From: Nitrospiria bacterium
GTDB lineage: Bacteria; Nitrospirota; Nitrospiria; DASWJH01
Length of the DNA: 64,000 nucleotides
NCBI GenBank assembly: GCA_036397255.1
Contig: DASWJH010000097.1
Span: forward strand, 1 to 64,000
Direction: 5' to 3'
Positions 18,568-39,737 of the stretch are shown here, piece by piece. Below the pieces are notes generated by a model, which searched no databases, was not told the DNA's origin, and saw only the letters and a program-made list of their open reading frames with translations. The position numbers were made by a program, and so were the translations under genes. Position 1 is the stretch's first letter; each line of letters begins with the position of its first letter.

Positions 18568-19059
18568 TTTATTACCTTATCGAAAAAAACACAAAGTGGC
18601 TTATTTACACTACCCCAATTCTTAAACCTCGAAAATCAGTCAGTCCTAACAAGGGATTTTTTCCTTTTTTTAATAATTTTAGCTATTTTAATGAGGAGAT
18701 ATAATTGATTTAGAAAATGCTGTTTCCATCGATTTCAAAAGAATATTTTTTTATTTGGATTTTCATAATTTTTTGAAGGCCTTGGTGGCCCTGGTGTTGC
18801 ACCGTTAAACCCTAAAAATTTTTAAAATAAAGGCTTTTTTTTTAAAAAAGTAATAAGTTTTGGATATTGCGTGAAATAGACTTTTTAATTCTTAATTAAA
18901 AAAAATCTAATCTATTGGCATATTAAAATTTGTCACTGGTTACCAGAGCCCCTTAATTAGCGCAAGCTCGTGTAGAGAAAGAGTAAAAGTTTAATAGGGG
19001 AAATGTAATAAAAAAAGCACTTTTTTGTTGATACCCTTAAGGGGTATTTTGAAGAACTA
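18568..19059. other. AT-rich intergenic region
   Basis: These 492 bases contain no gene I can support, only short A/T-rich frames with many stops. A small hairpin (ATACCC-TTAAG-GGGTAT then TTTT, 19031-19050) lies just before the flippase start and could attenuate transcription. The base composition marks the left edge of the AT-rich part of the cluster. Confidence 0.5.
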
Positions 19060-20424: not shown

Positions 20425-20816
20425 AGCTTTATTAAAAACCTACCGTGGTTTTTAAAAAAAATTGTAAACCGTAAGGAATTAAAAGTTTAATAAACTAACA
20501 CATTTTTATCCAGATGGCCTCAGGCGAAATTCTTTTTAATTCTTGGAGAAAGGGCAAATGTTTTTTTGAAAATATTGCAGATTACACAAGGAATTAATTA
20601 CAAATAGCTATACATATTTTAATCCTTTTCTATACAAATTAATCAGGAAATAGTAAGATTAACCAGTATTTAGACGGAAGTTTAAACCGTGTGGGGAGAG
20701 CGACAATGTGAAGGGAGAAGGAGGTTTTGAGTTGGGTTTTATACCTAAAAAACCTAATAGAATTTATAAAATAAGATAAATTTAATTTTTGTAAACGGAA
20801 ACCAAGAAAAGTTTAT
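20425..20816. other. AT-rich intergenic region
   Basis: After the terminator-like hairpin I see no gene in these 392 bases. A purine-rich stretch around 20690-20740 (GGGGAGAG, AAGGGAGAAGGAGG) resembles ribosome-binding sequence but is followed only by very short frames, possibly remnants of a lost gene. Confidence 0.4.
20432..20455 (+). terminator. Probable intrinsic terminator after the flippase gene
   Basis: TTAAAAACC (20432-20440), loop TACCGT, GGTTTTTAA (20447-20455). The stem is perfect, its 3' arm carries the T run, and it lies seven bases after the flippase stop. Confidence 0.5.
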
Positions 20817-21989
20817 ATGAAGAGAATGCTTAAAAAATTAAGAACAAAAGGGTCTTTTTCTAAAAACAAATTGTATCCTGTTTTAAGCACTTTATGGTTT
20901 CTTTCCACCCTTAAGTTAATTCCCATTAAAGGAGGTGAGAAAAAGTATCCCAAAGTGATCCAACTTCCTATAACCTATTTTTGTAACGCACGGTGTGTAA
21001 TGTGTGATGTTTGGAACATGGATTATTCCGGGGAATTAACGGCTAAAGAATTGAAAGCAGTTTTGACGGACCCAGTATTTAAAAAAGTGGAGGGCGTAGG
21101 AATTAATGGGGGTGAGCCTTCACTAATTAAAAATTTAGATGAGTATGCTGAGGTTATTATTAATCAATTACCCAATTTAAGGTCGTTAAATATTATATCT
21201 CACGGTTTTCATACCTCGCGTCTTTTGGCCCTTTTAAAGTCAATTTATTTTTTATGTAATAAAAAGGGAATTTCTTTTCATGTTTCAGTGTCGCTTGATG
21301 GATATGGTGAGATTCATGACAAGGTTCGTGGAATTCCTAAGGTTTTTAAAAAAACATTCGAAACAATAAAAGAAATTAAAGCAAATAGGAGCCTCTATTG
21401 CGACTCTTTTGATGTGGGGTGTACAGTTATAAGTCAAAATGTAAATTATTTAGAACAACTTAATGCTTTTGCAAAAAAAATTGAAATACAAATTAAATTC
21501 CGGATGGGGATTGAGAATAAACGAATTGAAAGCGAAAAACTTTTTCCTTCTTTTAGTGGATTTAATGGAAAAGGGTTATTTTCATCAAAAACTTTTTTTT
21601 ATTCTCAATATAAAAACAGCAAAACCATTTCTGATAAATTTAAATATTTTAGCATTTTTAACTCAATTAATAACGGTAGATCAAAAAGGTTGATGGGCTG
21701 TAATTGGAAAAATCAGGGAATAACATTAGATTCAAGAGGAAATATTTATTATTGCGCGGTTGAAAGTGAGTGCATTGGAAATTTGAAAAACACTCCTGGG
21801 GAAAAAATATTTTTTGATGAGGCCCATCTAAAATATCGGGAATCAATTGTCCAAAATAAATGTGATTCTTGTGTACATGATTACTATGGAAATCCAGAAA
21901 TTAAAAATTTTTTAATTTTTGTTTTTCAGGTTCTCCACGAGAGATTTTGGGCTAAAATATATGCCTTTAAATTAAGGTTTATGATTTGA
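20817..21989 (+). CDS. Radical SAM protein with SPASM-like C-terminus
   Basis: The 390 residues contain the radical SAM cluster motif CNARCVMC (about residues 58-65) and GGEPSLI for SAM binding. The C-terminal region carries additional cysteines (MGCNWK, IYYCAVESECIGN, NKCDSCVHDYYG) that fit an auxiliary iron-sulfur site of the SPASM/twitch type. Members in glycan clusters modify sugars or small peptides, but the substrate here is unknown. It overlaps the pyruvyl transferase gene by 4 bp. Base composition is much more AT-rich than in flanking genes and codons are dominated by AAA, TTT and ATT, suggesting transfer from another genome. Confidence 0.82.
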   Translation: MKRMLKKLRTKGSFSKNKLYPVLSTLWFLSTLKLIPIKGGEKKYPKVIQLPITYFCNARCVMCDVWNMDYSGELTAKELKAVLTDPVFKKVEGVGINGGEPSLIKNLDEYAEVIINQLPNLRSLNIISHGFHTSRLLALLKSIYFLCNKKGISFHVSVSLDGYGEIHDKVRGIPKVFKKTFETIKEIKANRSLYCDSFDVGCTVISQNVNYLEQLNAFAKKIEIQIKFRMGIENKRIESEKLFPSFSGFNGKGLFSSKTFFYSQYKNSKTISDKFKYFSIFNSINNGRSKRLMGCNWKNQGITLDSRGNIYYCAVESECIGNLKNTPGEKIFFDEAHLKYRESIVQNKCDSCVHDYYGNPEIKNFLIFVFQVLHERFWAKIYAFKLRFMI

Positions 21990-23149
21990 AAATAACCATT
22001 TTGGGTTGGTATGGAACGGAAACAATTGGAGACCGAGGTACATTTGCTGGAACTTTAAGTATTCTTTTTAAAAATTTAAAAATTGATCAAATTTTTTTAG
22101 GTAGTCTTTTCCCTTTCTTTACAGAAAAAACCATCTTTGAAGACCATCCTTTTTGGGCCAACTTAATAGGCTCCGAACCAAATATAAAAATTTTTAACTC
22201 TAAAAAATCAAAAGAATTGGAAAGTCATATTACCCAATCCGATATGGTTGTTATTGGAGGGGGGCCCCTCATGCATATTGAATCAATGTATATGTTGGCT
22301 TATGCTTTCAAATTTGCGAAGCGGAAAGGTATAAAGAACATTATTTTTGGATCAGGGGTCGGTCCATTTTTCACAAAAAGACATAAGGAGTTACTTACAG
22401 TACTTTTTCAATTCTCAGACAGGATTATTTTAAGGGATAGTACATCTCTTATTAATGCAAAAGATATTTTTAGAGAAATGGGAAAGGTTTTTGAAGAAGA
22501 CAAAATTCTGGTTTCCTTAGATCCTGCAATTGGACCTTGTCTTCATTTTAAAAAAAAGAAGAGTGAAGAATTACCGAAACTTCATTCTAACGAGATAACG
22601 GCCTCTATTTCCCTTCGAAATTTCCCAAAGGAATATCTTAAAGAAAATTCAGATCTTGATAAAATAAAAAATCGATTAGAAGAGTTTTACAAAAAATTAA
22701 ATCTTTCATTTGGTAGAGTTCGTTTTATTCCTATGCATTACTTTACAATTGGTGGAGATGATCGAAAGTATTTAAATAAACTTTATTTTGAATACCCTAG
22801 TGAAAACAGTTACGTCCAAAATGTTCCCCTTTCATTGGAAGAAACAATGGATGAATTTTATTCTGCGGATATATGTTTTGGAATGAGATACCATTCTATT
22901 ATTTTTCAAACCATCCTAAATGGAAAAAATTTTGTTATCGATTATACTGAGCCTAAAAAAGGAAAAACTTCAAATTTTGTCAAAGATATTGAATTTCCAA
23001 AAGAACGGTATGTGAATATACAAGAAGAGGATATTCCTAATTCTTTTTTAAATTTAGAGCAAAAACCATTTGTCCCTGATCAACAAATGATTGAGGAAAA
23101 ACTTAAAATTTATGATAAAACCATTTTTGATCTTTATAAGGGAAATTAA
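21986..23149 (+). CDS. Polysaccharide pyruvyl transferase family protein
   Basis: This 387-residue protein starts at TTG, overlapping the previous stop (TTGA). The opening KITILGWYGTETIGDRG, MVVIGGGPLMHIESMYM, IIFGSGVGPFF and the late CFGMRYHSIIFQTILNG follow the layout of PF04230 (CsaB/WcaK/EpsO), with a GT-B-like fold that transfers pyruvyl from PEP to a glycan. The sugar acceptor is unknown. It shares the strong AT bias of the radical SAM gene and both are probably one acquired unit. Confidence 0.8.
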   Translation: MKITILGWYGTETIGDRGTFAGTLSILFKNLKIDQIFLGSLFPFFTEKTIFEDHPFWANLIGSEPNIKIFNSKKSKELESHITQSDMVVIGGGPLMHIESMYMLAYAFKFAKRKGIKNIIFGSGVGPFFTKRHKELLTVLFQFSDRIILRDSTSLINAKDIFREMGKVFEEDKILVSLDPAIGPCLHFKKKKSEELPKLHSNEITASISLRNFPKEYLKENSDLDKIKNRLEEFYKKLNLSFGRVRFIPMHYFTIGGDDRKYLNKLYFEYPSENSYVQNVPLSLEETMDEFYSADICFGMRYHSIIFQTILNGKNFVIDYTEPKKGKTSNFVKDIEFPKERYVNIQEEDIPNSFLNLEQKPFVPDQQMIEEKLKIYDKTIFDLYKGN

Positions 23150-23233
23150 TATCCTTGTTTTTATTTGCAGTATTTTTTATGGTCAATATGCAATTTGAGA
23201 ATTTTAAGGTTTAGATTGGTTTAAAAAATTTAA

Positions 23234-24502
23234 TTGTTTAAAAAGGTAAACTCTTTGAGAGTCCTTCTTGTAAACACATTTGATATTGAGGGAGGTGCAG
23301 CCCGGGCGATGTATCGTCTTCATGTTGGGCTTCAGGATTTGGGCCTCGATTCTAAAATCCTGGCTCAAATCAAATCCACGGGGGATGCCAATGTGGTTGG
23401 CCCCGAATCCTACATAAAGAGAGGATGGGCACTGGTTCGGTTTGTGGCCGATGGATTTCCGGTTTTGTTGTATCCCAAAAGGGAGCGGACCAATTTTTAT
23501 ACAGCATACCTACCGGATGGACTGAAACAGAAATGTCGGTCCATCAACCCGGATGTGATACATTTTCATTGGCTTGGGGGGGGAGGGTTGCGGATCGAAA
23601 CGCTTCCCAAGTTAAAGAAACCCCTGGTCTGGACCCTCCATGATATGTGGCCCTTTACTGGGGGTTGCGCATATGATGGGGAATGTGGGCGATATCGGGG
23701 GTCTTGTGGATGCTGCCCCAAATTAAACAGTTCTAGGCAAAAGGATCTGTCTTCTTGGATTTGGAACCGTAAAAAGAAGGCCTGGAGAAATTTAAACCTT
23801 ACCCTTGTCACCCCGAGCAAGTGGTTAGCAGGCTGTGCTCGTTCTAGTTCCCTTTTTAACAATTATTCAATCCGAGTCATTCCTAACGGAATTGATATAA
23901 ACCGTTATAAACCGATCGAAAAAGGGGTTGCAAGGAATATCATCGGTTTACCTCAAAATAAAAAATTAATTATGATTGGGACCCTTCAAGCTTTAGATGA
24001 AAAACGGGCTGGTTTTTCATACATGCAGTCTGCACTGGTAAGGTTGGCTAAAAATGGGTTGAGTGATCAAACTGAAGTCGTTATGGTGGGATGTTCAAAA
24101 CCACAACCTGCTCCTAATTTTGGTTTAAAAACCTACTTTGTAGGCCGTTTAAACGATGATATCAGTATGGCGTTGTTCTATTCTGCCGCGGATGTTTTCA
24201 TAACCTCTTCTCTTCAAGAAAACCTTCCAAATATGGTTGTGGAATCAATTTCTTGTGGTACCCCATGTGTCGGGTTTGGGGTGGGGGGTGTTTCAGAGAT
24301 CATTGAGCACCGCACAACGGGGTATGTGGCTCAAGCGGGGGACTGGGAAGATTTGGCCTTTGGAATTCAATGGGTATTAGAGGACCCCTTGCGTTTGAAC
24401 CAATTAGGCGACAATGCCCGAAAAAAAGCCAAACATACCTATTCTATTGACCATCGGGCAAGAGATTATATGTCTCTTTATGAAGAGATTCTTTTAAAGT
24501 AA
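23234..24502 (+). CDS. Family 4 glycosyltransferase
   Basis: This 422-residue GT-B enzyme has VLLVNTFDIEGGAARAMYRL near the N-terminus and the acceptor-side HFHWLGGGGLR. The C-terminal half carries IPNGIDINRYKP, MIGTLQALDEKRAGF and TSSLQENLPNMVVESISCGTPCVGFGVGG, the EX7E donor-binding region. A Cys-rich stretch (YDGECGRYRGSCGCCPKL, about 150-168) is seen in WcaC-like colanic-acid-type transferases and may bind zinc. TTG at 23255, with AAAAGG upstream, is an alternative start that removes seven residues. Confidence 0.87.
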   Translation: MFKKVNSLRVLLVNTFDIEGGAARAMYRLHVGLQDLGLDSKILAQIKSTGDANVVGPESYIKRGWALVRFVADGFPVLLYPKRERTNFYTAYLPDGLKQKCRSINPDVIHFHWLGGGGLRIETLPKLKKPLVWTLHDMWPFTGGCAYDGECGRYRGSCGCCPKLNSSRQKDLSSWIWNRKKKAWRNLNLTLVTPSKWLAGCARSSSLFNNYSIRVIPNGIDINRYKPIEKGVARNIIGLPQNKKLIMIGTLQALDEKRAGFSYMQSALVRLAKNGLSDQTEVVMVGCSKPQPAPNFGLKTYFVGRLNDDISMALFYSAADVFITSSLQENLPNMVVESISCGTPCVGFGVGGVSEIIEHRTTGYVAQAGDWEDLAFGIQWVLEDPLRLNQLGDNARKKAKHTYSIDHRARDYMSLYEEILLK

Positions 24503-24520
24503 AGCAGAATAGGTGAAAGA

Positions 24521-25405
24521 TTGTCTGAGAAGGATTTTCAAACATTAATTTTTCTTCATATTCCTAAGGCGGCAGGAACCACCCTTCATCAGGTTTTAGA
24601 GCGGCAATTCCACCGAAAGGAGGTTTTTACCGTAGATGGCGCCCATGTGCCTGAATCCATTGAAGAATTTAAAAATCTGTCCGAAGAGAAGAAAGCCAAA
24701 ATCAAATGCTTAAAGGGCCATCTCCCATTTGGTTTACATGAGAATTTACCGGGCAAATCAAAGTACATAACAGTTTTAAGAAATCCGGTTGATCGGGTCA
24801 TTTCCCATTATTACTTTGTTTTACAAACCCCAAAACATTACTTGTACCGGCAAGTTGCCTCAAAAAACCTAACTCTTGAGCAATATGTAAAAGGTAACCT
24901 TTCTTCGGAAATTAATAATGGTCAAACCCGTTTAATTTGTGGAGACCCAAGGGTGGATACTGTTTCTGGGAACGGACCGGTGTCACAGGCCACTTTGGAA
25001 GCTGCGAAGCGAAACCTTCAGGAGCATTTTATTGGGGTTGGGATCTCTGAGCGATTTGATGAAACGGTTTTGATGTTCCGAAATTTGTTGGGTTGGGAAA
25101 ATGCTTATTACGCAAAAGAAAATGTGACCCGCAACCGGTCGGCCAAACCGGATGTTGCCCATGATGTTATAAAAGCTATAGAAGAAACCAATGCCCTCGA
25201 TATTGAGCTTTACGCTTTTGGCAAGGAATTATTTTTTGATCTATTAAAAAAGCACGGTGCGGACCAAGAGGAAGTTAAGGCCTTCAAAAAATGGAATCGG
25301 TACTTCGGAATGGCGTATAATTTATCCATGGTTGGAATTCCCAAAAAGGTGGTTAGACGTTTCATTAAAATTTACAAGGAAAATACCGTGTGGCGTAAAA
25401 GTTGA
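24521..25405 (+). CDS. PAPS-dependent sulfotransferase family protein
   Basis: This 294-residue protein starts at TTG with AGGTGAAAGA upstream. It shows FLHIPKAAGTTLHQVL (about 9-24), the 5'-phosphosulfate binding loop, and VLRNPVDRVISHYYF (about 85-99), the 3'-phosphate motif of the sulfotransferase-2/heparan-type family. It would transfer sulfate from PAPS to a carbohydrate. An APS kinase gene (27522-28139) lies in the same cluster and can supply PAPS, which supports glycan sulfation. Confidence 0.82.
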   Translation: MSEKDFQTLIFLHIPKAAGTTLHQVLERQFHRKEVFTVDGAHVPESIEEFKNLSEEKKAKIKCLKGHLPFGLHENLPGKSKYITVLRNPVDRVISHYYFVLQTPKHYLYRQVASKNLTLEQYVKGNLSSEINNGQTRLICGDPRVDTVSGNGPVSQATLEAAKRNLQEHFIGVGISERFDETVLMFRNLLGWENAYYAKENVTRNRSAKPDVAHDVIKAIEETNALDIELYAFGKELFFDLLKKHGADQEEVKAFKKWNRYFGMAYNLSMVGIPKKVVRRFIKIYKENTVWRKS

Positions 25406-25435
25406 TTGCATGACTTGAGGGGTTAATTTATTAAT

Positions 25436-26230
25436 TTGGAAAAGGAGCGTCTGTTTTCTGTAATCACGGTTTGTAAAGATGATTTAAAGAATCTAAAACG
25501 TACCTATCATGATCTCCAGGCCCAAACTTTTCCTGATCTTGAATGGATTGTGATTGATGGGGAGTCAAAAGACGGTACTGTTGCCTTTTTGGAGGATTTA
25601 AACCTATCAAATGCTATTTGGGAAAGTTCTCCCGATCTGGGCTTGTATGATGCAATGAACAAAGGGATCTCTAAAGCCCAGGGAGAATTTTTAATTTTTT
25701 TAAATGCGGGGGATTGTTTTGCCTCGGAGGAGACGCTTATAAGATTAAAAGAAAGGGTAAGAAACGCTTCCGATTTTGATTTAATTTATGGAGATGCAAT
25801 TATTGTTTTTGAGAATGGGGAGGAACTTTTTGAAAAGGCGCGGGGTCCATCCTACTTCAGGTATGGGCAGCCTATCTACCATCAGGCGATTTTATACCGG
25901 CGGGAATCCATAGGGTCGATCCGTTTTCAATTCGAAAAGTTTAAAATAGCAGCTGATTATGCTTTTGCTTTAGAACTGATTGCTCAGGGAAGAGAGGCCC
26001 TCCACATTCCGGTTCCAGTTTGCAGGTTTTTTTTAGGGGGAATTTCATCCAAAAATACGTTTCAGATATTAAAAGAAGTTTGGATCGCTCAGAGGGATAT
26101 ATTGCATGTTTCTTTGGGAACCCGTTTGATGAGTTATATGATTCATCTAGGTTCCATGATCAGCAAAGAGCGAGTTCCATGGTTATTTCGCGGCCTTCAT
26201 CGCTTATACCAGAAATGTAACCCCGTTTAA
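25436..26230 (+). CDS. Family 2 glycosyltransferase (WcaA-like)
   Basis: This 264-residue protein opens with FSVITVCKDDLKNLKRTY, followed by WIVIDGESKDGT, DLGLYDAMNKGISKAQGEFLIFLNAGD and IYGDAI, a pattern of soluble GT2 enzymes adding sugars in exopolysaccharide assembly. The start is TTG, with GAGGGG about 13 bases upstream, which is loosely spaced. The gene is close behind the sulfotransferase gene on the same strand. Confidence 0.87.
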   Translation: MEKERLFSVITVCKDDLKNLKRTYHDLQAQTFPDLEWIVIDGESKDGTVAFLEDLNLSNAIWESSPDLGLYDAMNKGISKAQGEFLIFLNAGDCFASEETLIRLKERVRNASDFDLIYGDAIIVFENGEELFEKARGPSYFRYGQPIYHQAILYRRESIGSIRFQFEKFKIAADYAFALELIAQGREALHIPVPVCRFFLGGISSKNTFQILKEVWIAQRDILHVSLGTRLMSYMIHLGSMISKERVPWLFRGLHRLYQKCNPV

Positions 26231-26282
26231 ATCAGCCCTGATATGGAAAAAAACGGCTGTTCTTTATAGGCTCCTTAAACCA

Positions 26283-27491
26283 ATGGATTCCCACGAACCC
26301 CAAAAAATGTCATTAAAAATTGCTATGGTGGTGGCCTGCCCTTTTCCGGCCAATCACGGGACTCCGGGAGGAATTCGGGAGTTGGCTCAGGCGGTTTCCG
26401 ATAAGGGTCATAAGGTTCATATTGTTACCTACCATTATGGGGAGGGATTAAATCCGCGTGGTGTTAAGTTGCACCGAATTTGGGACTGGGGGTTTAAAAA
26501 GAAAATGGTGGTGGGGCCCACAAAAGAAAAACCGGTATTGGATTTACTCATGGTGGTTAAACTGTGTGGCGTGATTTTCCGTGAAAAGATTGACCTGATT
26601 CATGGGCATAACTATGAAGGTGCTCTGATCGGTTTTTTTGCAAGCGTTTTAACCCGAAGACCCTTGGTATACCATGCCATCAATACCATGATTGATGAGT
26701 TACCCTCTTATAACTTCTTTAAACCCAAAATTCTTGCGGTCTGGATTGCCCGCTTTTTAGATTTTGTGGTCCCCCGATTGGGAGATGAAATCATTGCCAT
26801 ATCGGAGGATTTGGTCCGGTTTTTAAAAAGCCGGAATATAAGCCAGGGAAGGGTTCACTTAATTCCCCTTGGGGTAGACACCCAACGGTTTGAGGGTTTA
26901 GACCCATTGGCCATGAGGAAAAAATATGGGTGGGGGGATCGTCTTTTGGTTGTTTATACGGGAACGGTGGATCGGTTTCAAAGGATTGATTACCTATTAA
27001 ATGCCATGCAGATCGTTTGTCAAAATATACCCAAGGCAACGCTTTTTTTGGTTTGTAATGTTCCATCCGAAAAAGACCTAAAAGAATGTCACCGTATGGT
27101 GGAAGCGTGCAACCTCACGGACCATGTAGAAATTAATCATAAAGCCTCTATGGAGGAGGTTCCTTTTTTTCTTTCGGGGGCCGATGTTGCGGTGGTGAGT
27201 CGCCCGGATTGTCCGGGGTTTCCCATTAAACTTTTAAATTATATGGCTGCGGCCAAGGCGATTGTTCTCTTTGAGGGAACCTCCAAGGGCCTTGAGCACC
27301 TAAAGAATGCTTTTATTGTGAAGGACCATGATTATCAAGCTATGGCTCAGGGAATTATTACCATTCTCTCGGATTTTCAATTGCGGGAAAAACTGGGAAG
27401 GAATGCTAAAGAGTGGGTGGATGAGAAATTTGCATGGCCTACACTGGTTCAACAGATTGAACAGGTTTATTTTAAATTAGTTAATAAATAG
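26283..27491 (+). CDS. Family 4 glycosyltransferase
   Basis: The 402 residues contain MVVACPFPANHGTPGGIRELAQ at the N-terminus, LIHGHNYEGALIG in the acceptor domain and IPLGVDTQRFEGL, VVYTGTVDRFQRIDYLL and PGFPIKLLNYMAAAKAIVLFEG in the donor domain, typical GT-B/GT4 features. The donor-site ExxxxxxxE is altered (GFPIKLLNYMAAAK), which occurs in several subgroups. It is the last plus-strand gene before the convergent APS kinase gene. Confidence 0.87.
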   Translation: MDSHEPQKMSLKIAMVVACPFPANHGTPGGIRELAQAVSDKGHKVHIVTYHYGEGLNPRGVKLHRIWDWGFKKKMVVGPTKEKPVLDLLMVVKLCGVIFREKIDLIHGHNYEGALIGFFASVLTRRPLVYHAINTMIDELPSYNFFKPKILAVWIARFLDFVVPRLGDEIIAISEDLVRFLKSRNISQGRVHLIPLGVDTQRFEGLDPLAMRKKYGWGDRLLVVYTGTVDRFQRIDYLLNAMQIVCQNIPKATLFLVCNVPSEKDLKECHRMVEACNLTDHVEINHKASMEEVPFFLSGADVAVVSRPDCPGFPIKLLNYMAAAKAIVLFEGTSKGLEHLKNAFIVKDHDYQAMAQGIITILSDFQLREKLGRNAKEWVDEKFAWPTLVQQIEQVYFKLVNK

Positions 27492-30721: not shown

Positions 30722-31234
30722 ATGGATTCCAATGTTTTAAAAAAGGGTTTAATCGCATGGGTCACTTTGGGGTTATCTTTAACCTATTTTGTTTGGGTTG
30801 AACGATTCGATTCCCAAACTTTTCAAACCGTCGAGACCGGAGTAAGGATTTATGGAGACACCCTCTTTCCCTGTTTTGTAGGGGCTGCAGTTATTTTGGG
30901 AATTCTGTTGATTTTAAAAATGAAGTGGGCGTCCATCGGTTGGATCTGCTATATATCTCTTCTGTTTTATTTTGGTTTTTTAAAATCTTTAAACGGGGGT
31001 TGGGTGTCTTTCATTTTAGTGGTGGGATTTGCGGGTTTAATTTATGTGGTATTAAGAAAAAAAAACCATTTTGAGGTTCACTCCTCTTTGGTTCTGATCC
31101 ATGTCATGGGAACCATGAGCGGGCTTTATATGTCTTTTCATATAAAGGATTTCTTAAATGGATGGATTCCTTTTCAGGAGGTGATTCAAGGCCTATGGCT
31201 GTTGGTGACACAGGGAGTGTTTAAGATGTGGTGA
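30722..31234 (+). CDS. Hypothetical membrane protein, about five TM segments
   Basis: This 170-residue protein (ATG 30722 with AAGG five bases before the spacer; GTG 30707 is an alternative start) is made almost entirely of five hydrophobic segments joined by short loops. I do not recognise a family. It begins 18 bp after the GT-C-like gene and is probably co-transcribed. Its end overlaps the convergent decarboxylase gene by 14 bp. Confidence 0.6.
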   Translation: MDSNVLKKGLIAWVTLGLSLTYFVWVERFDSQTFQTVETGVRIYGDTLFPCFVGAAVILGILLILKMKWASIGWICYISLLFYFGFLKSLNGGWVSFILVVGFAGLIYVVLRKKNHFEVHSSLVLIHVMGTMSGLYMSFHIKDFLNGWIPFQEVIQGLWLLVTQGVFKMW

Positions 31235-32699
31235 CCACACCCACCAGGGTATTGCTTTCATTCAACCCATCGATGGTTGCCCCGAGATCAGCCATGATTT
31301 TGATATAGTCAATGACTTCTTGGGTGATCACCTCTCCTGGAATTAAAACAGGAATACCCGGTGGGTAAACCGTGACAATTTCCGAGCTGACTCTTCCTAT
31401 GGATTCAGGGAGGTTTAAATATTCATGTTTTGAAAAAAAAGCTTTGTGAGATGAGGTCTGCACCTTATTCTGAAAAAGTGGAAGATCGACTTTTTCTAAT
31501 GGCGAGCGTTCCGCTTTAGGGGGGTTGTTTTTGGAAATCTCTTTGAGGGCGTCGACCAACCGGTTCAGGTCATCCCTTCGGTCCCCAATCGACACAATGA
31601 CCAGGATGTGAAAAGGGTCTGCCATTTCAACCTGGATGTTATAGGTGGAATTTAAAATCTGTGAAACCCGATACCCGGAGAGGCCCAGCTCTTTAACGGT
31701 AACAGTCAGCTTGGTCACATCTAAATCACCCATCTTTGAGAAAATCGTCCCCGTTACATTGGTTTTGCCGAAACAACTTACCCCCGGAATTCGGTTAATT
31801 CTCAACCGGGCTTCTTCGGCCAGTTTAATGGTTTTTTCCAAAAGCTTGGCCCCTTCGGTGGCCATTTGCATTCTGGCAAGGTCCAGAGAGGCCATCAAAA
31901 TATAAGAAGGGCTGGTGGTTTGAACCACTTTTAGTGCATTGGTGAGCGCTCTAAAATTAATTTGATTCCCTTGGGCGTGAAGCATAGAAGCCTGAGTCAT
32001 TCCCCCGATGATTTTATGGGTGCTCTGCACAGCAATGTCTGCCCCCGCTTCTAAGGCAGATATGGGAAGGGAAGGGTGAAATCTAAGATGGGGACCATGG
32101 GCTTCGTCTACCAACACAATGATTCCCCGCTCATGGGCATAGGGAATGATCCGTTCAATATCTGCGGTAATCCCGTAATAGTTAGGCGTGGTCAAAAAGA
32201 GGGCTTTTGCTTCCGGGTTCTGATCAATGGCGTTTTTGGTTTCTTCAAAGGTGACATTCATTAACACATTTAAATCTGTGTCATAGGCAGGAGAAAAGAA
32301 AATAGGGTTTGCGCCACAGAGAATGATTCCCGCCAAGACTGATTTGTGTGCGTTTCGGGCAACCAAAATTTTATCCCCTGGTTTACAGGTGGATAAAACC
32401 ATGGCATGATTTCCCCCAGTGGTCCCATTGACAAGGAAAAAAGAACGTTCCGCGCCGTAGGCCCGGGAGGCGAGTTCCTGGGCTTCTTTGATGACTCCCC
32501 GAGGTTTTTGAAGTGAGTCCACCTCGTCCAGAGTGGTGAGGTCGATGGAGAAAATTTTAGGGCCCACAAATTTACGAAAACGTGTTGAGATTCCCTTTCC
32601 GCTTTTGTGACCAGGGGTATGGAAGGAGACCTTCCGACTCTCCGCCAAATTCACCATTGCGTCAAACAGGGGGGTTCGTAACTGTTCTTCATTTTCCAT
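31221..32699 (-). CDS. speA: Orn/Lys/Arg decarboxylase, probable arginine decarboxylase
   Basis: This 492-residue PLP enzyme has FHTPGHKSGKGI, FFLVNGTTGGNHAMV, VLVDEAHGPHLRF and STHKIIGGMTQASMLH, where the Lys of STHK binds PLP. The short form of about 490 residues, without the N-terminal wing domain, matches Gram-positive and cyanobacterial arginine decarboxylases. It follows speE and speD on the same strand (46-bp gap), so it likely makes agmatine for polyamine synthesis. Lysine or ornithine specificity cannot be excluded by eye. Confidence 0.85.
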   Translation of the reverse strand: MENEEQLRTPLFDAMVNLAESRKVSFHTPGHKSGKGISTRFRKFVGPKIFSIDLTTLDEVDSLQKPRGVIKEAQELASRAYGAERSFFLVNGTTGGNHAMVLSTCKPGDKILVARNAHKSVLAGIILCGANPIFFSPAYDTDLNVLMNVTFEETKNAIDQNPEAKALFLTTPNYYGITADIERIIPYAHERGIIVLVDEAHGPHLRFHPSLPISALEAGADIAVQSTHKIIGGMTQASMLHAQGNQINFRALTNALKVVQTTSPSYILMASLDLARMQMATEGAKLLEKTIKLAEEARLRINRIPGVSCFGKTNVTGTIFSKMGDLDVTKLTVTVKELGLSGYRVSQILNSTYNIQVEMADPFHILVIVSIGDRRDDLNRLVDALKEISKNNPPKAERSPLEKVDLPLFQNKVQTSSHKAFFSKHEYLNLPESIGRVSSEIVTVYPPGIPVLIPGEVITQEVIDYIKIMADLGATIDGLNESNTLVGVVTTS

Positions 32700-32745
32700 T
32701 GTATGTTTACTAGGCGGTGTGGGGTTCCGGGGCCCACGCGGAAGG

Positions 32746-33666
32746 TTAACTATAAATAAAGAGGGGTTGATTGTCTTCTATTAAGCGTTCTTCTTTTTCA
32801 ATGGCTCGGCGAACGTGTTTGGGTAAGAGAAACTGACCTTGGTGGACAGCCGAATCGTAATAACGAAGTTCGCCAGTAACTCGATCCTTAATTCTTCGGT
32901 CAACTTCTTCAGGAGAAAGGTCCTGAGGACGAAGTTTCTTGGAAGCCAGTTCGAATCCCCACGGCAGACCAAACGAGGGGATCCACGCCTCATAGGGGGA
33001 CACCACTGGGAAGACAGATTTCAGGGTTTGATAAACTGCGCTAAAATTTAATAAAGAAGTCAATGCCGTGGTCCCGGCTTGTAGTGAAATGATTCCTTCT
33101 TTGGTTAAGCGCTTCATTAGGATGTTATAGAACTCCCGTGTGTATAGAAGATAGGCCGGTCCTTCCTCGACAGGCTCGGATATATCAATAATAATGATAT
33201 CGTATACTTCTTGGGTCTCTTCCAGATATTTCCGGGCATCTAAAAATTGAAGCTCTACTCTGGGATCATCAAATGCACCCTGGTGCCATTCGGGAAGAAA
33301 TTTTTTGGCGCTTTCCACGACTTCCTGGTCGATATCCACCATCAACACATGTTCAACGCTTTTATGTCGGAGAATTTCCCGGAGGGTGGCTCCTTCGCCT
33401 CCCCCTACGACAAAGACCCGTTTGGGGGAAGGGTGGGTGAGCAAGGCGGGATGCACCAAGGCTTCATGATAAATAAACTCATCACGTTCGCTGGATTGCA
33501 TTTTCCCATCTAGAATCAGGCAACGACCATAATTGGAAATTTCCATAATTTCCATTTGCTGGAATTTGGTCTGCTTGGTGTGAAGAATGGTTTTCACCCC
33601 TAGCATATGACCTTCATCCGGACTTAGGAAATCAAGGAACCATTTGTAGTTCTTTGATTCGGTCAT
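32746..33666 (-). CDS. speE: Polyamine aminopropyltransferase (spermidine synthase family)
   Basis: The 306 residues contain FQQMEIMEISNYGRCLILDGKMQSS (substrate strand), HPALLTHPSPKRVFVVGGGEGATLRE (decarboxylated-SAM binding), VDIDQEVV and IIIDISEPVEEG (catalytic Asp). GGGEGATLRE is the variant seen in broad-specificity enzymes of thermophiles and in thermospermine-type synthases. With an arginine decarboxylase beside it, agmatine could be an acceptor as well as putrescine. The ATG lies 35 bp inside the end of speD, with GGGAGAGG upstream. Confidence 0.9.
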   Translation of the reverse strand: MTESKNYKWFLDFLSPDEGHMLGVKTILHTKQTKFQQMEIMEISNYGRCLILDGKMQSSERDEFIYHEALVHPALLTHPSPKRVFVVGGGEGATLREILRHKSVEHVLMVDIDQEVVESAKKFLPEWHQGAFDDPRVELQFLDARKYLEETQEVYDIIIIDISEPVEEGPAYLLYTREFYNILMKRLTKEGIISLQAGTTALTSLLNFSAVYQTLKSVFPVVSPYEAWIPSFGLPWGFELASKKLRPQDLSPEEVDRRIKDRVTGELRYYDSAVHQGQFLLPKHVRRAIEKEERLIEDNQPLFIYS

Positions 33667-34602: not shown

Positions 34603-35724
34603 ATGCGAATTAAAATAAACGGAAAAGAAGAGGAAGTCCAAGAAAAAACAGTATTGGCCCTTTTAAAAACAAAGGAGATCGAACCTCAAATGGTCTCCGT
34701 GGAATTCAATTCAAAAATTCTCAACCGGGAGGATTTTTCTCAGACTAATCTTAAAGAGGGAGATAGAATTGAGTTTCTTTTCTTTATGGGAGGAGGAGAA
34801 CCCGGTGTTCCTCAAGACGTGGTGGAACTCATTGGGAACACGCCTATGGTTCCTCTGCGACGGGTTGGAGAAGGAAAAAGAGCCGATCTTTTTGCAAAGA
34901 TTGAATTTTTTAACCCGGGCGGAAGTGTGAAGGACCGGATTTGCCTGAGCATGATCGATGAAGCTGAGAAACAAGGAAAAATCCGCCCAGGATCCACTAT
35001 TATTGAACCGACCAGTGGAAACACAGGGATCGGGCTTGCGCTGGTTTCAGCGGTTCGAGGGTATAAACTTATTTTGGTAATGCCCGAGAGTATGAGTATG
35101 GAGCGAGCCAGTCTTCTTTCTTCCTATGGATCCCAATTGGTTCTAACCCCAGGCTGGGAAGGCATGAGAGGTGCAATTAAGGAAGCCCAAAGCATTTTGG
35201 AGCAGAATCCAAGCTATTTTATGCCCAATCAATTTGAAAATCCTGCAAACCCAGCTATTCATCGTGCCACTACCGCTCTCGAAATTTGGGATGATATGGA
35301 TGGAAAGGTGGATGCTTTCGTGGTGGGGGTGGGAACGGGGGGAACCATCACAGGTGTTGGGGAGGTTTTGAAAGAGAGAAACCCAAGGGTCAAAATTATT
35401 GCTGTTGAACCAACCACCTCTCCTGTTCTCTCGGGAGGAGATCCTGGTCCTCATAAAATTCAGGGCATTGGGGCGGGGTTTATTCCAAAAATTTTGAACC
35501 GCCAGGTTTTGGATCAAATTATTACCGTGGAAGATGATGAAGCTTATCGAATGGCAAAGCTCTTGGCTAAAAAAGAAGGGTTGCTGGTTGGCATTTCTTC
35601 GGGAGCCAACGTACATGCTGCCCTTCAGGTGGCGCAGGAGTTGGGCCCTGGAAAGCGGGTGGTTACCTTGTTGCCGGATACAGGGGAACGTTACATTAGC
35701 ATTGAAAAATATTTTAATATTTAG
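34603..35724 (+). CDS. ThiS-type sulfur carrier fused to cysteine synthase
   Basis: The start at 34603 is fixed by the promoter and GGAG upstream (373 aa). Residues 1-65 are a full ThiS/MoaD ubiquitin-fold carrier ([12 protein letters not shown]... LKEGDRIEF) ending in FMGGG, as free ThiS proteins do. The reading frame then continues directly into a complete CysK/CysM-type PLP enzyme: [20 protein letters not shown] with PLP Lys near 110, [22 protein letters not shown] and [12 protein letters not shown]. Free carriers need the Gly-Gly end to be a C-terminus for adenylation, so the fusion must either be cleaved or the carrier domain act in another way. It heads a locus with two E1 enzymes and a JAMM protease. 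GGAGGAGGAG, which encodes the glycines, could also act as an internal ribosome-binding site, but no well-spaced start follows. Confidence 0.88.
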
Positions 35725-35747
35725 GGAGTGGTTTGTAAAAGGAACCC

Positions 35748-36548
35748 ATGGGTTTTTCAGAAGAACAGATTGAACGGTATAGTCGCCATATTTTATTACC
35801 CGAAGTAGGTGGCAAGGGTCAAAAGAAAATTGGGGAAGCCAAAGTTTTCATTGTTGGGGCAGGGGGGTTAGGCTCTCCGGTTGCCCTTTATTTGGCGGCC
35901 GCGGGAATCGGGACTTTGGGGATGGTCGATGGGGATGTGGTCGACGTGTCTAACCTGCAAAGACAAGTCATTCATCATACCCAGGATGTGGGTGTTTTGA
36001 AGGTTCGTTCTGCCAAAAAAAAGATTGAAGAAATGAATCCCGATGTGAAGGTTGTAGTCTTTGAAGAACATCTCCACTCAAAGAATATTCTTTCTTTGAT
36101 CCGAGATTATGATATTTTAATCGATGGGACTGACAACTTTCCGGCAAAATTCTTAATCAATGATGCTGCTGTTTTAAGCCAAAAACCTTTGATTCATGGA
36201 GGTATTCTGCGTTTTGAGGGTCAGGCCATGACCATTATTCCTAATCAAACTGCTTGTTATCGATGCATATTTAAAGGGCCTCCTCCTTCTGGCCTGGTTC
36301 CTAGTTGTCAGGAGGCAGGTGTGCTGGGGGTTTTGGCCGGCTTAATCGGGACCATTCAGGCGACGGAGGTGTTAAAATTAATTCTGAATATTGGGAACCC
36401 TCTTTTTAATAGGATTTTAGTCTATGATGCTCTGAAGGTCCGTTTTAGAGAAGTTCCCGTCAAGCGGAACCCTGCCTGCCCGGTTTGTGGAGAAAAACCG
36501 ACCATTACCGAGTTGGTAGACTATGAACAAGAGGTCTGCAGGATTTAA
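35748..36548 (+). CDS. ThiF/MoeB-family E1-like adenylyltransferase, copy 1
   Basis: This 266-residue protein activates the C-terminal glycine of a sulfur carrier by adenylation. Seen are RYSRHILLPEVGGKGQKKI, VGAGGLGSPVALYLAAAGIG (ATP site), DVSNLQRQ, DGTDNFPAKFLIND, zinc-binding CYRC and CPVC pairs, and SCQEAGVLG with the candidate catalytic Cys. It lacks the C-terminal rhodanese domain of MoeZ. It is 23 bp after the ThiS-CysK fusion gene and is closely similar to the E1 at 38411-39220, so the two probably arose by duplication. Its carrier partner may be the fused ThiS domain or the MoaD protein. Confidence 0.9.
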   Translation: MGFSEEQIERYSRHILLPEVGGKGQKKIGEAKVFIVGAGGLGSPVALYLAAAGIGTLGMVDGDVVDVSNLQRQVIHHTQDVGVLKVRSAKKKIEEMNPDVKVVVFEEHLHSKNILSLIRDYDILIDGTDNFPAKFLINDAAVLSQKPLIHGGILRFEGQAMTIIPNQTACYRCIFKGPPPSGLVPSCQEAGVLGVLAGLIGTIQATEVLKLILNIGNPLFNRILVYDALKVRFREVPVKRNPACPVCGEKPTITELVDYEQEVCRI

Positions 36549-36613
36549 TGATCGTTTTACGTTTTGTTATTCCAGGTTAACCCCTTCCGATGGGAAGGGT
36601 CAAATGAGAAGAA

Positions 36614-37861
36614 ATGGCTAAAATGAAAGGGTTAAAATGTCGTGAGTGTGGAAAGGGCTATCCCCTTGATCCCATCCATGTTTGCGAGTTTTGTTTTGGT
36701 CCTTTGGAAGTGGTTTACAATTATTCAGAAATTGCGAATCAATTTTCCCGAAAGGATATTCTGAGTGGCCCCAATAGCCTTTGGCGTTATCATGCGCTTC
36801 TCCCTGTGGAAGGTCCACCCACGGTTGGGCTTCACGGGGGGTTTACTCCGATGCTGCATGCCAAGAATCTCGGGAAATACTTGGGATTAGATGAGCTTTA
36901 CCTGAAAAATGACACGGTTAATCATCCCACCCTTTCTTTTAAAGACCGGGTGGTTGCCGTTGCTTTGACCCGGGCAAAGGAATTCGGGTTTTCTACCGTT
37001 GCCTGTGCTTCTACGGGGAATCTTGCCAATTCGGTGTCTGCTCATGCCGCTGAAGCCCAATTGAGGTGTTTTGTCTTTATTCCAAGCGATTTGGAGATGG
37101 GGAAGATTCTCGGTAATTTAATTTTTAAACCCACGGTGGTGGCCGTTGAAGGCACCTATGACGATGTGAATCGGTTGTGCAGCGAAATCGCGGGGGAGTA
37201 CCCTTGGGCTTTTGTGAACATTAATGTCAGGCCTTATTATTCGGAAGGGTCAAAAACCTTGGCGTTCGAAACCGCTGAGCAACTGGGGTGGAATGCACCG
37301 CAACACGTGGTGGTTCCCATTGCTTCAGGCTCACTTTTGACTAAAATTTGGAAGGGACTCAAGGAGTTTGAAACGTTAAAGTTCATTGATCCCATTCAAA
37401 CCCGAGTTCATGGAGCTCAGGCGGAGGGATGTTCACCCGTGGCCAGCGCCTTTCAGGAAGGACGGGATTTTATCAAACCGGTGAAACCCAAAACCGTTGC
37501 AAAATCCTTGGCCATTGGCAATCCAGCTGATGGATTTTATGCTATCAAAACCGCCCGTGAGAGCAATGGGGTAATTGAAATGGTGAATGATCCCGAAATT
37601 GTAGAGGGAATTCAGCTGTTGGCTCAGACCGAAGGGGTGTTTGCGGAAACCGCGGGAGGGGTGACCATTGCCGTCCTCCGGAAATTGGTAAAACAAGGGG
37701 TGATTCAAAAGGGAGAGGTAACCGTTGCCTATATTACCGGGAATGGTTTGAAAACACAGGAGGCAGTTCGACATGTGGTAGATGAACCCACCCGGATTCG
37801 ACCCAGCCTTTCTGATTTTGAGAACACCTTTGGTTTGGACCAAGAAAAGGAAAAAAAATAA
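36614..37861 (+). CDS. thrC: Threonine synthase (PLP enzyme)
   Basis: The 415 residues start with a zinc-ribbon-like segment (LKCRECGKGYP, CEFCFGPL, about 5-33), followed by the PLP Lys motif HPTLSFKDRVVA, ACASTGNLANSV and PIASGSLLTKIW. It belongs to fold-II threonine synthases, converting O-phosphohomoserine to threonine. The stop is directly followed by the MoaD-like gene (ATG at the next base), so they are tightly coupled. Sitting inside a sulfur-carrier locus, it might instead or additionally accept a sulfur nucleophile and make homocysteine; that is inference. ATG 36623 is a possible alternative start. Confidence 0.85.
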   Translation: MAKMKGLKCRECGKGYPLDPIHVCEFCFGPLEVVYNYSEIANQFSRKDILSGPNSLWRYHALLPVEGPPTVGLHGGFTPMLHAKNLGKYLGLDELYLKNDTVNHPTLSFKDRVVAVALTRAKEFGFSTVACASTGNLANSVSAHAAEAQLRCFVFIPSDLEMGKILGNLIFKPTVVAVEGTYDDVNRLCSEIAGEYPWAFVNINVRPYYSEGSKTLAFETAEQLGWNAPQHVVVPIASGSLLTKIWKGLKEFETLKFIDPIQTRVHGAQAEGCSPVASAFQEGRDFIKPVKPKTVAKSLAIGNPADGFYAIKTARESNGVIEMVNDPEIVEGIQLLAQTEGVFAETAGGVTIAVLRKLVKQGVIQKGEVTVAYITGNGLKTQEAVRHVVDEPTRIRPSLSDFENTFGLDQEKEKK

Positions 37862-38137
37862 ATGGCTGTTAAAGTTAGAATTCCAACCCCTCTTCGAAAG
37901 TTAACATCGGGATTGGGGGAAATCAAAATCGAAGGAACCACTGTTCAGGAAATTATCGATAATTTGGAAAAAGAGTACCCTGGAATGAGAGAGAGACTTT
38001 GTGATGAAGGGGGAGAGCTTAGGCGTTTTGTTAATTTTTATTTGAACGAGCAGGATATACGTTTTATCAAAGGGAAGGAAACCCCCCTCCAGGAGGGGGA
38101 TGAGATTTCGATCGTTCCTGCCATTGCGGGAGGTTGA
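37862..38137 (+). CDS. MoaD/ThiS-family sulfur carrier protein
   Basis: This 91-residue ubiquitin-fold protein has VKVRIPTPLRKLTSG at the start, an LEKEYPGMRERL helix, RFVNFYLNEQDIRF strands and ends in DEISIVPAIAGG. The free terminal Gly-Gly is the site of adenylation and thiocarboxylate formation. Length and the NEQDIR segment resemble CysO and other amino-acid-biosynthetic carriers more than molybdopterin MoaD. It begins immediately after thrC and is followed by the NIL gene and the second E1. Confidence 0.9.
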   Translation: MAVKVRIPTPLRKLTSGLGEIKIEGTTVQEIIDNLEKEYPGMRERLCDEGGELRRFVNFYLNEQDIRFIKGKETPLQEGDEISIVPAIAGG

Positions 38138-38159
38138 TGTTTAACACCGAGGAAACCAC

Positions 38160-38399
38160 ATGGCAAGTCTAAAAGTTCATATTACATTTCCTGAAGAGAA
38201 AATAAAAGAGCCAATCATTTATCTGGTGGGCCAGGAATACAAAGTCGTCACCAATATTCGAAAGGCCGACGTCACTGAAAAAACGGGGTGGGTGGATTTG
38301 GAGCTCGTTGGTGATCCTAAGGAAATTGAACGGGCGGTAGAGGGTATTAAGAAAAAGGGCGTTAAGGTTGATCCCATCGAACGAAATATTATTGAGTGA
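38160..38399 (+). CDS. Stand-alone NIL domain protein
   Basis: This 79-residue protein corresponds to one NIL domain (VHITFPEEKIKEPIIYLVGQEYKVVTNIRKADVTEKTGWVDLELVGDPKEIERAV), the ACT-like fold found at the end of MetN and in proteins needed for homocysteine formation in methanogens. GAGGAAACCAC precedes the ATG. Its end overlaps a potential GTG of the next gene. Its place between the carrier and the E1 suggests a role in methionine or homocysteine metabolism. Confidence 0.85.
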   Translation: MASLKVHITFPEEKIKEPIIYLVGQEYKVVTNIRKADVTEKTGWVDLELVGDPKEIERAVEGIKKKGVKVDPIERNIIE

Positions 38400-38410
38400 A
38401 GGGGAAAAAA

Positions 38411-39220
38411 ATGGGGAGTAGTTTTTCTGATGAAGAAATACAACGGTACAGCCGGCACATCATCCTCCCCGAAGTAGGGGGAAAGGGCCAAAAGAAAATC
38501 AAGGAATCAAAGGTTTTTTGTGTGGGGGCGGGAGGTCTTGGTTCCCCGGCGGCGCTTTATCTGGCCGCTGCGGGGGTGGGAACATTGGGGATTATTGATG
38601 CCGACCATGTTGACCTCTCTAACCTGCAACGGCAGATTCTTCATTCGACAAAAAACGTTAATCAACTCAAGGTGGAATCCGCCAAAGAAACCCTTAATGG
38701 AATTAATCCTCACACGGAAGTGAAAATGTATCCCACCAAACTGTCTTCCGATAATATTCTTGATCTGATACGGGATTACGATGTGGTGATGGATGGTTCG
38801 GATAATTTCCCCACCCGTTTTCTCGTGAATGATGCCTGTTTTTTTATGAAGAAACCCCTGGTTTCCGGAAGTATATTCCGTTTTGAAGGGCAAGTAACCA
38901 GCCTCAAGGCTTTTGTCGATGGTAATCCCTGTTACCGGTGCCTCTACCCCGAACCTCCTCCTTCGGGTTTAGTTCCCAGTTGCCAGGAAGCGGGAATTTT
39001 GGGTGTTTTGGCCGGGACCATTGGCGTCATTCAGGCGACGGAAGTTTTGAAGGAGATTTTGGGAATTGGTGAAACACTCTATCATCGATTAATGCTTTAT
39101 GATGCCCTAGAAATGAAATTCAGAGAAGTTAAAACGCTGAAAGACCCTCAGTGTATTCTCTGCGGACCAAACCCCAAAATTACCAAATTGATCGATTACG
39201 AAATTTCTTGTACGATTTAA
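38411..39220 (+). CDS. ThiF/MoeB-family E1-like adenylyltransferase, copy 2
   Basis: I use ATG 38411 (AAGGGG six bases upstream) rather than the earlier GTG. This 269-residue enzyme has the same layout as copy 1: RYSRHIILPEVGGKGQKKI, VGAGGLGSPAALYLAAAGVG, DLSNLQRQ, DGSDNFPTRFLVND, CYRC, SCQEAGILG and CILC. Similarity to copy 1 runs over the whole length, with more than half of positions identical by eye. The position after MoaD and NIL suggests it serves the free MoaD carrier while copy 1 serves the fused ThiS. Confidence 0.9.
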   Translation: MGSSFSDEEIQRYSRHIILPEVGGKGQKKIKESKVFCVGAGGLGSPAALYLAAAGVGTLGIIDADHVDLSNLQRQILHSTKNVNQLKVESAKETLNGINPHTEVKMYPTKLSSDNILDLIRDYDVVMDGSDNFPTRFLVNDACFFMKKPLVSGSIFRFEGQVTSLKAFVDGNPCYRCLYPEPPPSGLVPSCQEAGILGVLAGTIGVIQATEVLKEILGIGETLYHRLMLYDALEMKFREVKTLKDPQCILCGPNPKITKLIDYEISCTI

Positions 39221-39290
39221 ATTTTTGTGATATGGAGGGCAGGGTCGATCTGATGCCCTATGGCGGTTCCTTCAAAATTACCATAAACGA

Positions 39291-39737
39291 ATGTTAACCA
39301 TTTCCCGTTCCCTTTACGATACCATCATTTCCCATGCCCAGGCTGAAGCCCCTAACGAGTGTTGCGGCCTATTGGTGGGTCGAGAGGGACAAATCAGCCA
39401 TATCTATCGGATTCGAAATCTGGAAGATTCGGATCGAATCCGGGAATTGAAAATTCCTTCTGACCGGGCCGTCCGTTACTTTATGGATGAACGCCAAATG
39501 ATGGATGCCATGACCAATATGCGGGATAACCGTTTAGACCTTCTTGCTATTTATCATTCCCATCCCCGGACCGAGGCCTACCCCTCCGCAACGGATATCC
39601 GTTTGGCGTATTACCCGGATTCGTTTTATTTGATTGTCTCCCTGGAGAACCCAAAACAGCCTGATGCCAATCTATTTCGCATTGTCGATGGAAAGGTAAC
39701 CCCTCAGACCCTAAAGATATTAGAAAACGGTGCATAA
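39291..39737 (+). CDS. JAMM/Mov34 metalloprotease (Mec-like)
   Basis: The 148-residue protein has the complete JAMM zinc site: Glu in APNECCGLLVG, then HSHPRTEAYPSATD (HxH-x7-SxxD). In mycobacteria the homologous Mec+ removes cysteine from the CysO carrier after CysM has joined it. Here it may release an amino acid from MoaD, or cut the ThiS-CysK fusion after its glycines. It ends the locus, 70 bp after the second E1. Confidence 0.9.
   Translation: MLTISRSLYDTIISHAQAEAPNECCGLLVGREGQISHIYRIRNLEDSDRIRELKIPSDRAVRYFMDERQMMDAMTNMRDNRLDLLAIYHSHPRTEAYPSATDIRLAYYPDSFYLIVSLENPKQPDANLFRIVDGKVTPQTLKILENGA

Follow-up and report, generated by a model that had tools for sequence, protein, structure and literature searches.

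Which sulfur compounds are made, and by what route, is the question raised by seven tightly packed genes of a Nitrospiria bacterium, located at 34603-39737 of the window, i.e. the whole 64,000-nucleotide stretch of contig DASWJH010000097.1 that was analysed. The genes are co-directional on the + strand, span 5.1 kb with intergenic gaps of 0-70 bp and bring together two sulfur carriers, two E1 enzymes, two fold-II pyridoxal phosphate (PLP) enzymes, a NIL-domain protein and a JAMM metallopeptidase. The question touches on a recorded gap. According to Bayer 2020 (PMC8115632), no sequenced Nitrospira, N. marina included, has the known early methionine genes, yet N. marina needs no methionine for growth, so that a pathway still unknown must be at work; an earlier account (Price et al. 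2018, PMC5764234) counted at least one route to homocysteine as still undiscovered. We consider it likely that the locus is a two-module thiocarboxylate operon for sulfur amino acids, of which the homocysteine step is the Nitrospirota version of the Streptomyces MetM/MetO system. As summarised in PMC12172450, MetM is a homocysteine synthase of Streptomyces acting on O-phosphohomoserine, with a carrier-like neighbour, MetO, and an S-adenosylmethionine (SAM) riboswitch (Hasebe et al. 2024, AEM e01247-24).

The first gene, ThiS-CysK (34603-35724), joins a ThiS-type carrier (residues 1-65, ending MGGG) in frame to a CysK-type O-acetylserine sulfhydrylase (residues ~71-373), and a predicted cut site after GGG in the junction (34777-34818) would free the carrier C-terminus. 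It is followed by E1a (35748-36548), a ThiF/MoeB-family adenylyltransferase with CxxC..CxxC sites and no rhodanese domain, and by ThrC2 (36614-37861), a threonine-synthase-like fold-II PLP enzyme with an N-terminal Cys-rich ribbon and the predicted MetM-type homocysteine synthase. The MoaD/CysO-like carrier (37862-38137), assigned to the MetO type, ends AIAGG, and its start abuts the ThrC2 stop. Thereafter come NIL (38160-38399), a stand-alone NIL domain of 79 amino acids with a predicted regulatory or binding role as a subunit in the homocysteine module, E1b (38411-39220; alternative upstream GTG start possible at 38396), likewise of the ThiF/MoeB family, and a Mec-like JAMM metallopeptidase (39291-39737), whose predicted tasks are the trimming or release of carriers and the cleavage of adducts between amino acids and carriers. 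Pfam and NCBIfam searches agree with the family of each gene: ThiS and PALP domains with TIGR01139 cysK at 468 bits (cut-off 351) for ThiS-CysK, ThiF at 282 and 277 bits for the two E1s, PALP with TIGR00260 thrC at 291 bits, above cut-off, for ThrC2, ThiS/MoaD at 65 bits for the carrier, NIL at 50.9 bits for the NIL protein and Prok-JAB at 90 bits for the JAMM protein, the motif of which is intact (E..HSHPRTEAYPSATD; pattern E..HxHx7SxxD). The seven genes, their order and their families stand as the original prediction gave them from the letters of the window.

That prediction had named ThrC2 a threonine synthase, an identity which does not hold. A canonical second ThrC, designated ThrC1, lies between hom and lysC elsewhere in the same genome, and ThrC2 is therefore unneeded for threonine. 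ThrC2 was compared with threonine synthases of known structure and with ThrC1 of the same genomes. It retains the PLP lysine K110 (Tth K61), the STGN loop and T375, and ten residues invariant in threonine synthases are swapped for other fixed ones at ThrC2 positions 137, 204, 206, 209, 213, 238, 241, 300, 306 and 307 (in Tth numbering T88 to L, S155 to N, N157 to R, R160 to Y, Q164 to S, N188 to S, N191 to L, R242 to A, S248 to D and W249 to G). Nine of these swaps are uniform in 117/117 ThrC2 sequences and the remaining one, N188 to S, is found in 116. Judged by active-site residues, ThrC2 was thus rejected as a threonine synthase. Several of the swapped residues, Tth R160 and N188 among them, bind the substrate phosphate in threonine synthase. 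In the ThrC tree, ThrC2 forms a clade of its own with support of 100/99.

A homologue in an 11.85 Mb Nonomuraea record (51.6% identity) falls inside the ThrC2 clade and carries 9/10 of the signature residues; it is followed by a MoaD protein ending AVAGG and preceded, by ~13 bp, by a SAM riboswitch scoring 68.7 bits. With this pair standing in for MetM of Streptomyces albulus in the comparison, it is concluded that ThrC2 and MoaD are, as far as sequence likeness can tell, of the MetM/MetO type. In the transcriptome of Streptomyces coelicolor, SCO4293 (thrC) and SCO4294 are found among sulfate assimilation genes (PMC2267785).

A comparison of gene order around homologues had been proposed with the original prediction, and loci of relatives were collected by scanning genome contigs with the ThrC2 protein. 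The order ThiS/CysK-E1a-ThrC2-MoaD-NIL-E1b-JAMM recurs in 80/80 Nitrospirota loci, Nitrospira moscoviensis included, when contig ends are allowed for and a few loci without JAMM are counted, which is conservation far beyond chance. The triplet ThrC2-MoaD-NIL is also present in 36/36 loci from other classes and families, in which ThiS-CysK, the E1s and JAMM may lie elsewhere; the cluster is therefore modular, with ThrC2-MoaD-NIL as its invariant core. In Thermodesulfovibrionia-like genomes this core often stands with no E1 or JAMM nearby. The proposal that a cysteine-type and a homocysteine-type set are combined here is supported, in that ThrC2-MoaD-NIL is separable and is linked to methionine by its neighbours, by riboswitches and by a complementary distribution, and in that the two E1s are old paralogues.

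As to the neighbours, NIL is followed in Thermodesulfovibrionia-like loci by ThrC1, then by a TIGR02535 "proposed homoserine kinase" (580 bits, cut-off 446) and in many by lysC, and some of these loci carry hom, a TusA-like protein, an E1 and a JAMM upstream of ThrC2-MoaD-NIL. The TIGR02535 gene was seen after ThrC1 or NIL in six such loci and in similar ones. Its place with ThrC1, lysC and ThrC2 supports the notion that this phosphoglycerate-mutase-like protein makes O-phosphohomoserine. SAM-cycle genes are also found beside the locus: metK-ahcY lie directly upstream in four loci of one family, and there a SAM-II riboswitch (43.2-46.5 bits, gathering 44) and a terminator hairpin stand ahead of metK-ahcY. 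In one further locus, a SAM_alpha riboswitch (39.4 bits, gathering 36) and a terminator precede JAMM-ThiS-CysK-ThrC2-MoaD-E1-NIL. Five Nitrospirota loci were thus seen with a riboswitch; most other loci scanned with Rfam had none. In Microcystis, a SAM riboswitch is likewise absent upstream, a regulatory trait and not an essential one (PMC12172450).

The distribution of methionine routes was surveyed in 236 Nitrospirota genomes, of which 207 have ThrC2, 8 MetX, 5 HcyBio, none MetA and 68 a Cys_Met_Meta_PP (Cys/Met-PLP) enzyme, with the reservation that only the best seven candidates were scored where candidates were many, so that a few absences may be false. The five HcyBio genomes are all ThrC2-negative, and MetX or HcyBio occurs in 3/207 genomes with ThrC2 vs 10/29 without it (Fisher p 4e-8, descriptive only, the genomes being related). 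In 156/207 ThrC2 genomes MetX, MetA, HcyBio and Cys/Met-PLP are all missing, and at least one of them is present in 22/29 ThrC2-negative genomes. In the genomes that have MetX, its coordinates place it next to a Cys/Met-PLP gene, as a substitute route would lead one to expect. Two families of the survey may be mentioned in their own right. One family, of ten genomes, is without ThrC2, MetX, MetA and HcyBio, and most of its members have only a Cys/Met-PLP enzyme, which is another methionine gap in the Nitrospirota. In the other, the Cys/Met-PLP domain lies in open frames of ~850-910 amino acids (G121:C17:42972, G131:C42:12151, G135:C35:17566, G204:C66:1973, G214:C51:17208), which suggests an uncharacterised fusion protein.

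The source genome itself (3.35 Mb, 97.5% complete), the closest named relatives of which are Nitrospirota, was searched for MetX, MetA and HcyBio (PF01837), and none was found. It does have two Cys/Met-PLP enzymes, on contigs C78 and C54. The idea that cysE is missing was rejected, cysE being present in 17/18 genomes, the source genome among them. Fold-II PLP proteins number four, namely the CysK of the locus, ThrC2, the canonical ThrC and one on contig C122 taken to be a putative tryptophan synthase beta; ThiS-CysK is the only cysteine synthase found. There are also four full sulfur carriers: ThiS-CysK, MoaD, a ThiS beside thiG (ending VGGG) and a linear MoaD-MoaE fusion with AGG at the junction (G000 C79:40756-40992; L002:1066-1746, - strand), the last being, besides ThiS-CysK, another fused carrier for which a JAMM-type cleavage would be required. 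A second, weak JAB match lies on contig C76.

Only two ThiF-type E1s were found in the genome, both within the locus. E1a and E1b are two clades kept side by side (100/99 and 98/87, unrooted tree), and for this reason their split is old. Since only two E1s serve four carriers, the thiamine ThiS and MoaD-MoaE among them, E1 sharing is needed and the expectation of one E1 per carrier was given up; MoeZR of mycobacteria, which serves both MoaD and CysO, is a precedent (PMC3227635). The assignment of E1b to the ThrC2 module is suggestive. The lone E1 of Thermodesulfovibrionia-like loci without CysK was considered as proof of such pairing and discarded: it is E1a-like by BLAST, and the unrooted tree, in disagreement, places it on the E1b side (96/89).

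The carriers differ in their ends. The in-frame joining of ThiS to CysK in the window is genuine and recurs in eight relatives of several lineages, with unrelated linkers and GGG always kept, but it is not the general state: most relatives have a distinct, overlapping ThiS gene, the product of which carries one or more further residues after GGG; a Nitrospira fusion among the eight (L044:5883-6398) may, unlike the others, be a one-base G-run artefact. Among unfused relatives, 71/73 ThiS-type carriers end GG(G) plus a non-Gly tail, which is Arg in 44. The free GG end of MoaD, as found in the window, is shared by 59/116 loci, and the other 57/116 have a tail after GG. The JAMM motif is kept in 79/79 relatives (61 HSHP, 18 HSHT/S), and the window's protein is 33% identical to Tsukamurella Mec. 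A JAMM that cuts a linear MoaD-MoaE fusion is reported from Deinococcus (cited in PMC11237513). Because of the carrier tails, the fusions that keep GGG, this Deinococcus precedent and the MoaD-MoaE fusion in the same genome, JAMM maturation of a ThiS pro-carrier is plausible by analogy, and such a pro-carrier could become fused without loss.

For the cysteine half, the original prediction had pointed to the mycobacterial CysO-CysM route, which in its plain form does not fit. The CysK domain scores 468 bits with cysK vs 297 with TIGR01138 cysM (cut-off 394) and is 38.6% identical to Tsukamurella CysM; an O-acetylserine sulfhydrylase is indicated by this family score and by CysE in the genome. 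The C-terminus of CysE is not Ile, and no cysteine-synthase-complex tail is seen there. The carrier of CysO likeness (45% identical to Tsukamurella CysO; SAMP1 score 60.8, cut-off 60) adjoins ThrC2 instead. A plain CysO-CysM-Mec reading was hence rejected, the carrier with the cysteine synthase being ThiS-type and not MoaD-type and the synthase not CysM-type. A cysteine synthase-JAMM-MoaD group, interrupted by two insertion sequence elements, was also observed on the Aliarcobacter cibarius plasmid pACIB beside a family 2A encapsulin with cysteine desulfurase cargo.

We infer the substrates, the thiocarboxylates, the JAMM steps and the role of NIL as follows. An E1 would adenylate the terminal Gly-Gly of the MoaD-like carrier, and the acyl-adenylate (acyl-AMP) would be converted to a thiocarboxylate. 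ThrC2 would draw on O-phosphohomoserine, a branch-point compound that is likewise the substrate of the true threonine synthase of the genome, eliminate phosphate as that enzyme does, and attach sulfur from the carrier to C-gamma rather than water to C-beta. The product would be carrier-bound homocysteine, to be released by JAMM, or free homocysteine if sulfide is used, and NIL would probably sense or bind homocysteine, methionine or SAM, or act as a small subunit. In the other module, the ThiS-type carrier would be made as a pro-protein, tailed or CysK-fused, freed after GG(G) by JAMM and thiocarboxylated, and CysK would use the matured ThiS-COSH with O-acetylserine to give cysteine. This mechanism is the best supported, in its homocysteine part by converging genome evidence and a characterised relative, in its cysteine part by proximity, carrier tails and analogy. 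In both modules the true sulfur donor may be the carrier or free sulfide. A wider proposal is held tentatively and with some doubt, namely that all cysteine and homocysteine sulfur in much of the phylum passes via protein thiocarboxylates, with CysK using a self-fused, JAMM-cut ThiS, a MetM-type enzyme using the second carrier, the E1s split between them and NIL acting as methionine sensor.

Several known systems share parts of this scheme. So far as MetM/MetO is described in the source consulted, it has in common with the present locus a ThrC-like enzyme distinct from threonine synthase with an adjacent carrier gene, the Nonomuraea pair being in the same clade, and SAM riboswitch control in actinobacteria, for which some Nitrospirota have other riboswitch classes; unlike it, all loci seen here add NIL, those of the window's class add two E1s, JAMM and ThiS-CysK, and the window is without a riboswitch. 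The mycobacterial CysO-CysM-Mec route shares the logic of carrier, PLP synthase, JAMM (here Mec-type) and E1, but here the synthase is CysK-type with a tailed ThiS-type carrier, cysE is present, the E1s are without rhodanese and the CysO-like carrier stands beside ThrC2. The Wolinella HcyS/HcyF/HcyD-MetY homocysteine route reportedly also has a thiocarboxylate donor, an E1, a metallopeptidase and carriers with a residue after GG; here, however, the enzyme is a ThrC-like fold-II one and not MetY (fold I), and MetX and MetA for an acyl-homoserine supply are absent from the genome. A plain HcyS-MetY reading was accordingly rejected, and the match that had been drawn to it for the homocysteine half passes to MetM/MetO. 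The DUF39/HcyBio and NIL-ferredoxin route likewise ties a NIL-domain protein to homocysteine synthesis, but this genome has no HcyBio, its NIL protein is without ferredoxin domains, and HcyBio occurs only in ThrC2-negative Nitrospirota. Finally, the class 4c/4e ThiS/MoaD-E1-JAB operons (Iyer, Burroughs and Aravind 2006, PMC1779556) couple a carrier, an E1 and a JAB protein to genes for cysteine synthase or for sulfur assimilation and differ in that two carriers, two E1s, ThrC2 and NIL are found here; "threonine synthase" and "NIL" appear nowhere in the text of PMC1779556. A literature search, outside which the full text of Hasebe 2024 lay, found no paper linking the MetM/MetO route to Nitrospira.

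Certain points weigh against the two-module interpretation. Since the phosphate-site residues of threonine synthase are altered in ThrC2, a site for O-phosphohomoserine would have to be rebuilt, perhaps via R206. The Microcystis ThrC, 52% identical to MetM, acted in vitro as a threonine synthase and deaminase and in cells did not replace MetM in full (PMC12172450). No Rfam match was obtained in the window even at E up to 1, i.e. no riboswitch, the genome counts are not phylogenetically independent, and JAMM was not found beside 6/8 fused relatives, one of which is cut by a contig end. CysK with O-acetylserine could run on free sulfide without a carrier, and with the enzymes on C78 and C54 a cystathionine route may operate in the source genome. 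This last point leads to a rival that we hold to be unlikely, in which one Cys/Met-PLP enzyme is a plant-like cystathionine gamma-synthase acting on O-phosphohomoserine, the other a beta-lyase, and the locus serves cysteine only, which cysE and CysK would provide. Yet the 156 ThrC2 genomes devoid of any Cys/Met-PLP enzyme keep the whole locus, N. marina grows without methionine (PMC8115632), and SAM riboswitches precede the locus in relatives.

It is quite improbable that ThrC2 supplies the genome with another threonine synthase, or works as a threonine deaminase, and that the adjoining MoaD and NIL have nothing to do with it. In favour of this reading are the score of ThrC2 above the thrC cut-off, its intact PLP core and the in vitro activities of the MetM-like Microcystis enzyme (PMC12172450), but the canonical ThrC stands beside hom/lysC, in many relatives within the same operon, the swaps are fixed, ThrC2 always adjoins MoaD and NIL, and SAM riboswitch control and the mirror-image distribution with MetX/HcyBio would be left over. 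ThrC-like enzymes can act on O-phosphoserine, as cysteate synthase does, and together with the carrier's likeness to CysO this allows for cysteine as the product of both PLP enzymes, with ThrC2 working on O-phosphoserine like CysM or cysteate synthase and homocysteine coming from elsewhere. We regard this as very improbable: the neighbours of ThrC2 are homoserine and SAM-cycle genes and not serine genes, most genomes have no other homocysteine route, CysE and CysK already cover cysteine, and Streptomyces MetM, as reported in PMC12172450, uses O-phosphohomoserine. A ubiquitin-like protein-modification system of SAMP, E1 and JAMM with metabolic bystanders is likewise very improbable; MoaD lies just above the SAMP1 cut-off and pairing of E1 with JAMM is common to archaeal sampylation, but in all loci the carriers adjoin PLP enzymes, the context is one of riboswitches and metK/ahcY, and the Thermodesulfovibrionia-like core often has no E1 or JAMM nearby.

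Elsewhere in the window, genes for an Orn/Lys/Arg decarboxylase and a spermidine synthase are found upstream of the locus in divergent orientation (31221-33666, - strand); polyamine synthesis consumes SAM. An exopolysaccharide-type cluster with glycosyltransferases, a flippase, a radical SAM protein, a polysaccharide pyruvyl transferase and a sulfotransferase occupies 17605-27491.

Overall, ThrC2 is the best candidate for the missing enzyme of methionine synthesis in nitrite-oxidising Nitrospira. The methionine pathway of Nitrospira, nitrite and ammonia oxidisers of global importance, is on record as missing (Bayer 2020, PMC8115632), and with genes now named for it, a stated open question becomes directly testable. 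A route described in Streptomyces in 2024 would be extended to another phylum, with likely E1, JAMM and NIL partners, and ThiS-CysK hints at a maturation path for a carrier fused to its own enzyme. The core gene labelled "threonine synthase" in ~88% of sampled Nitrospirota genomes is probably a homocysteine synthase, and annotations and auxotrophy predictions that follow the label would therefore be wrong.

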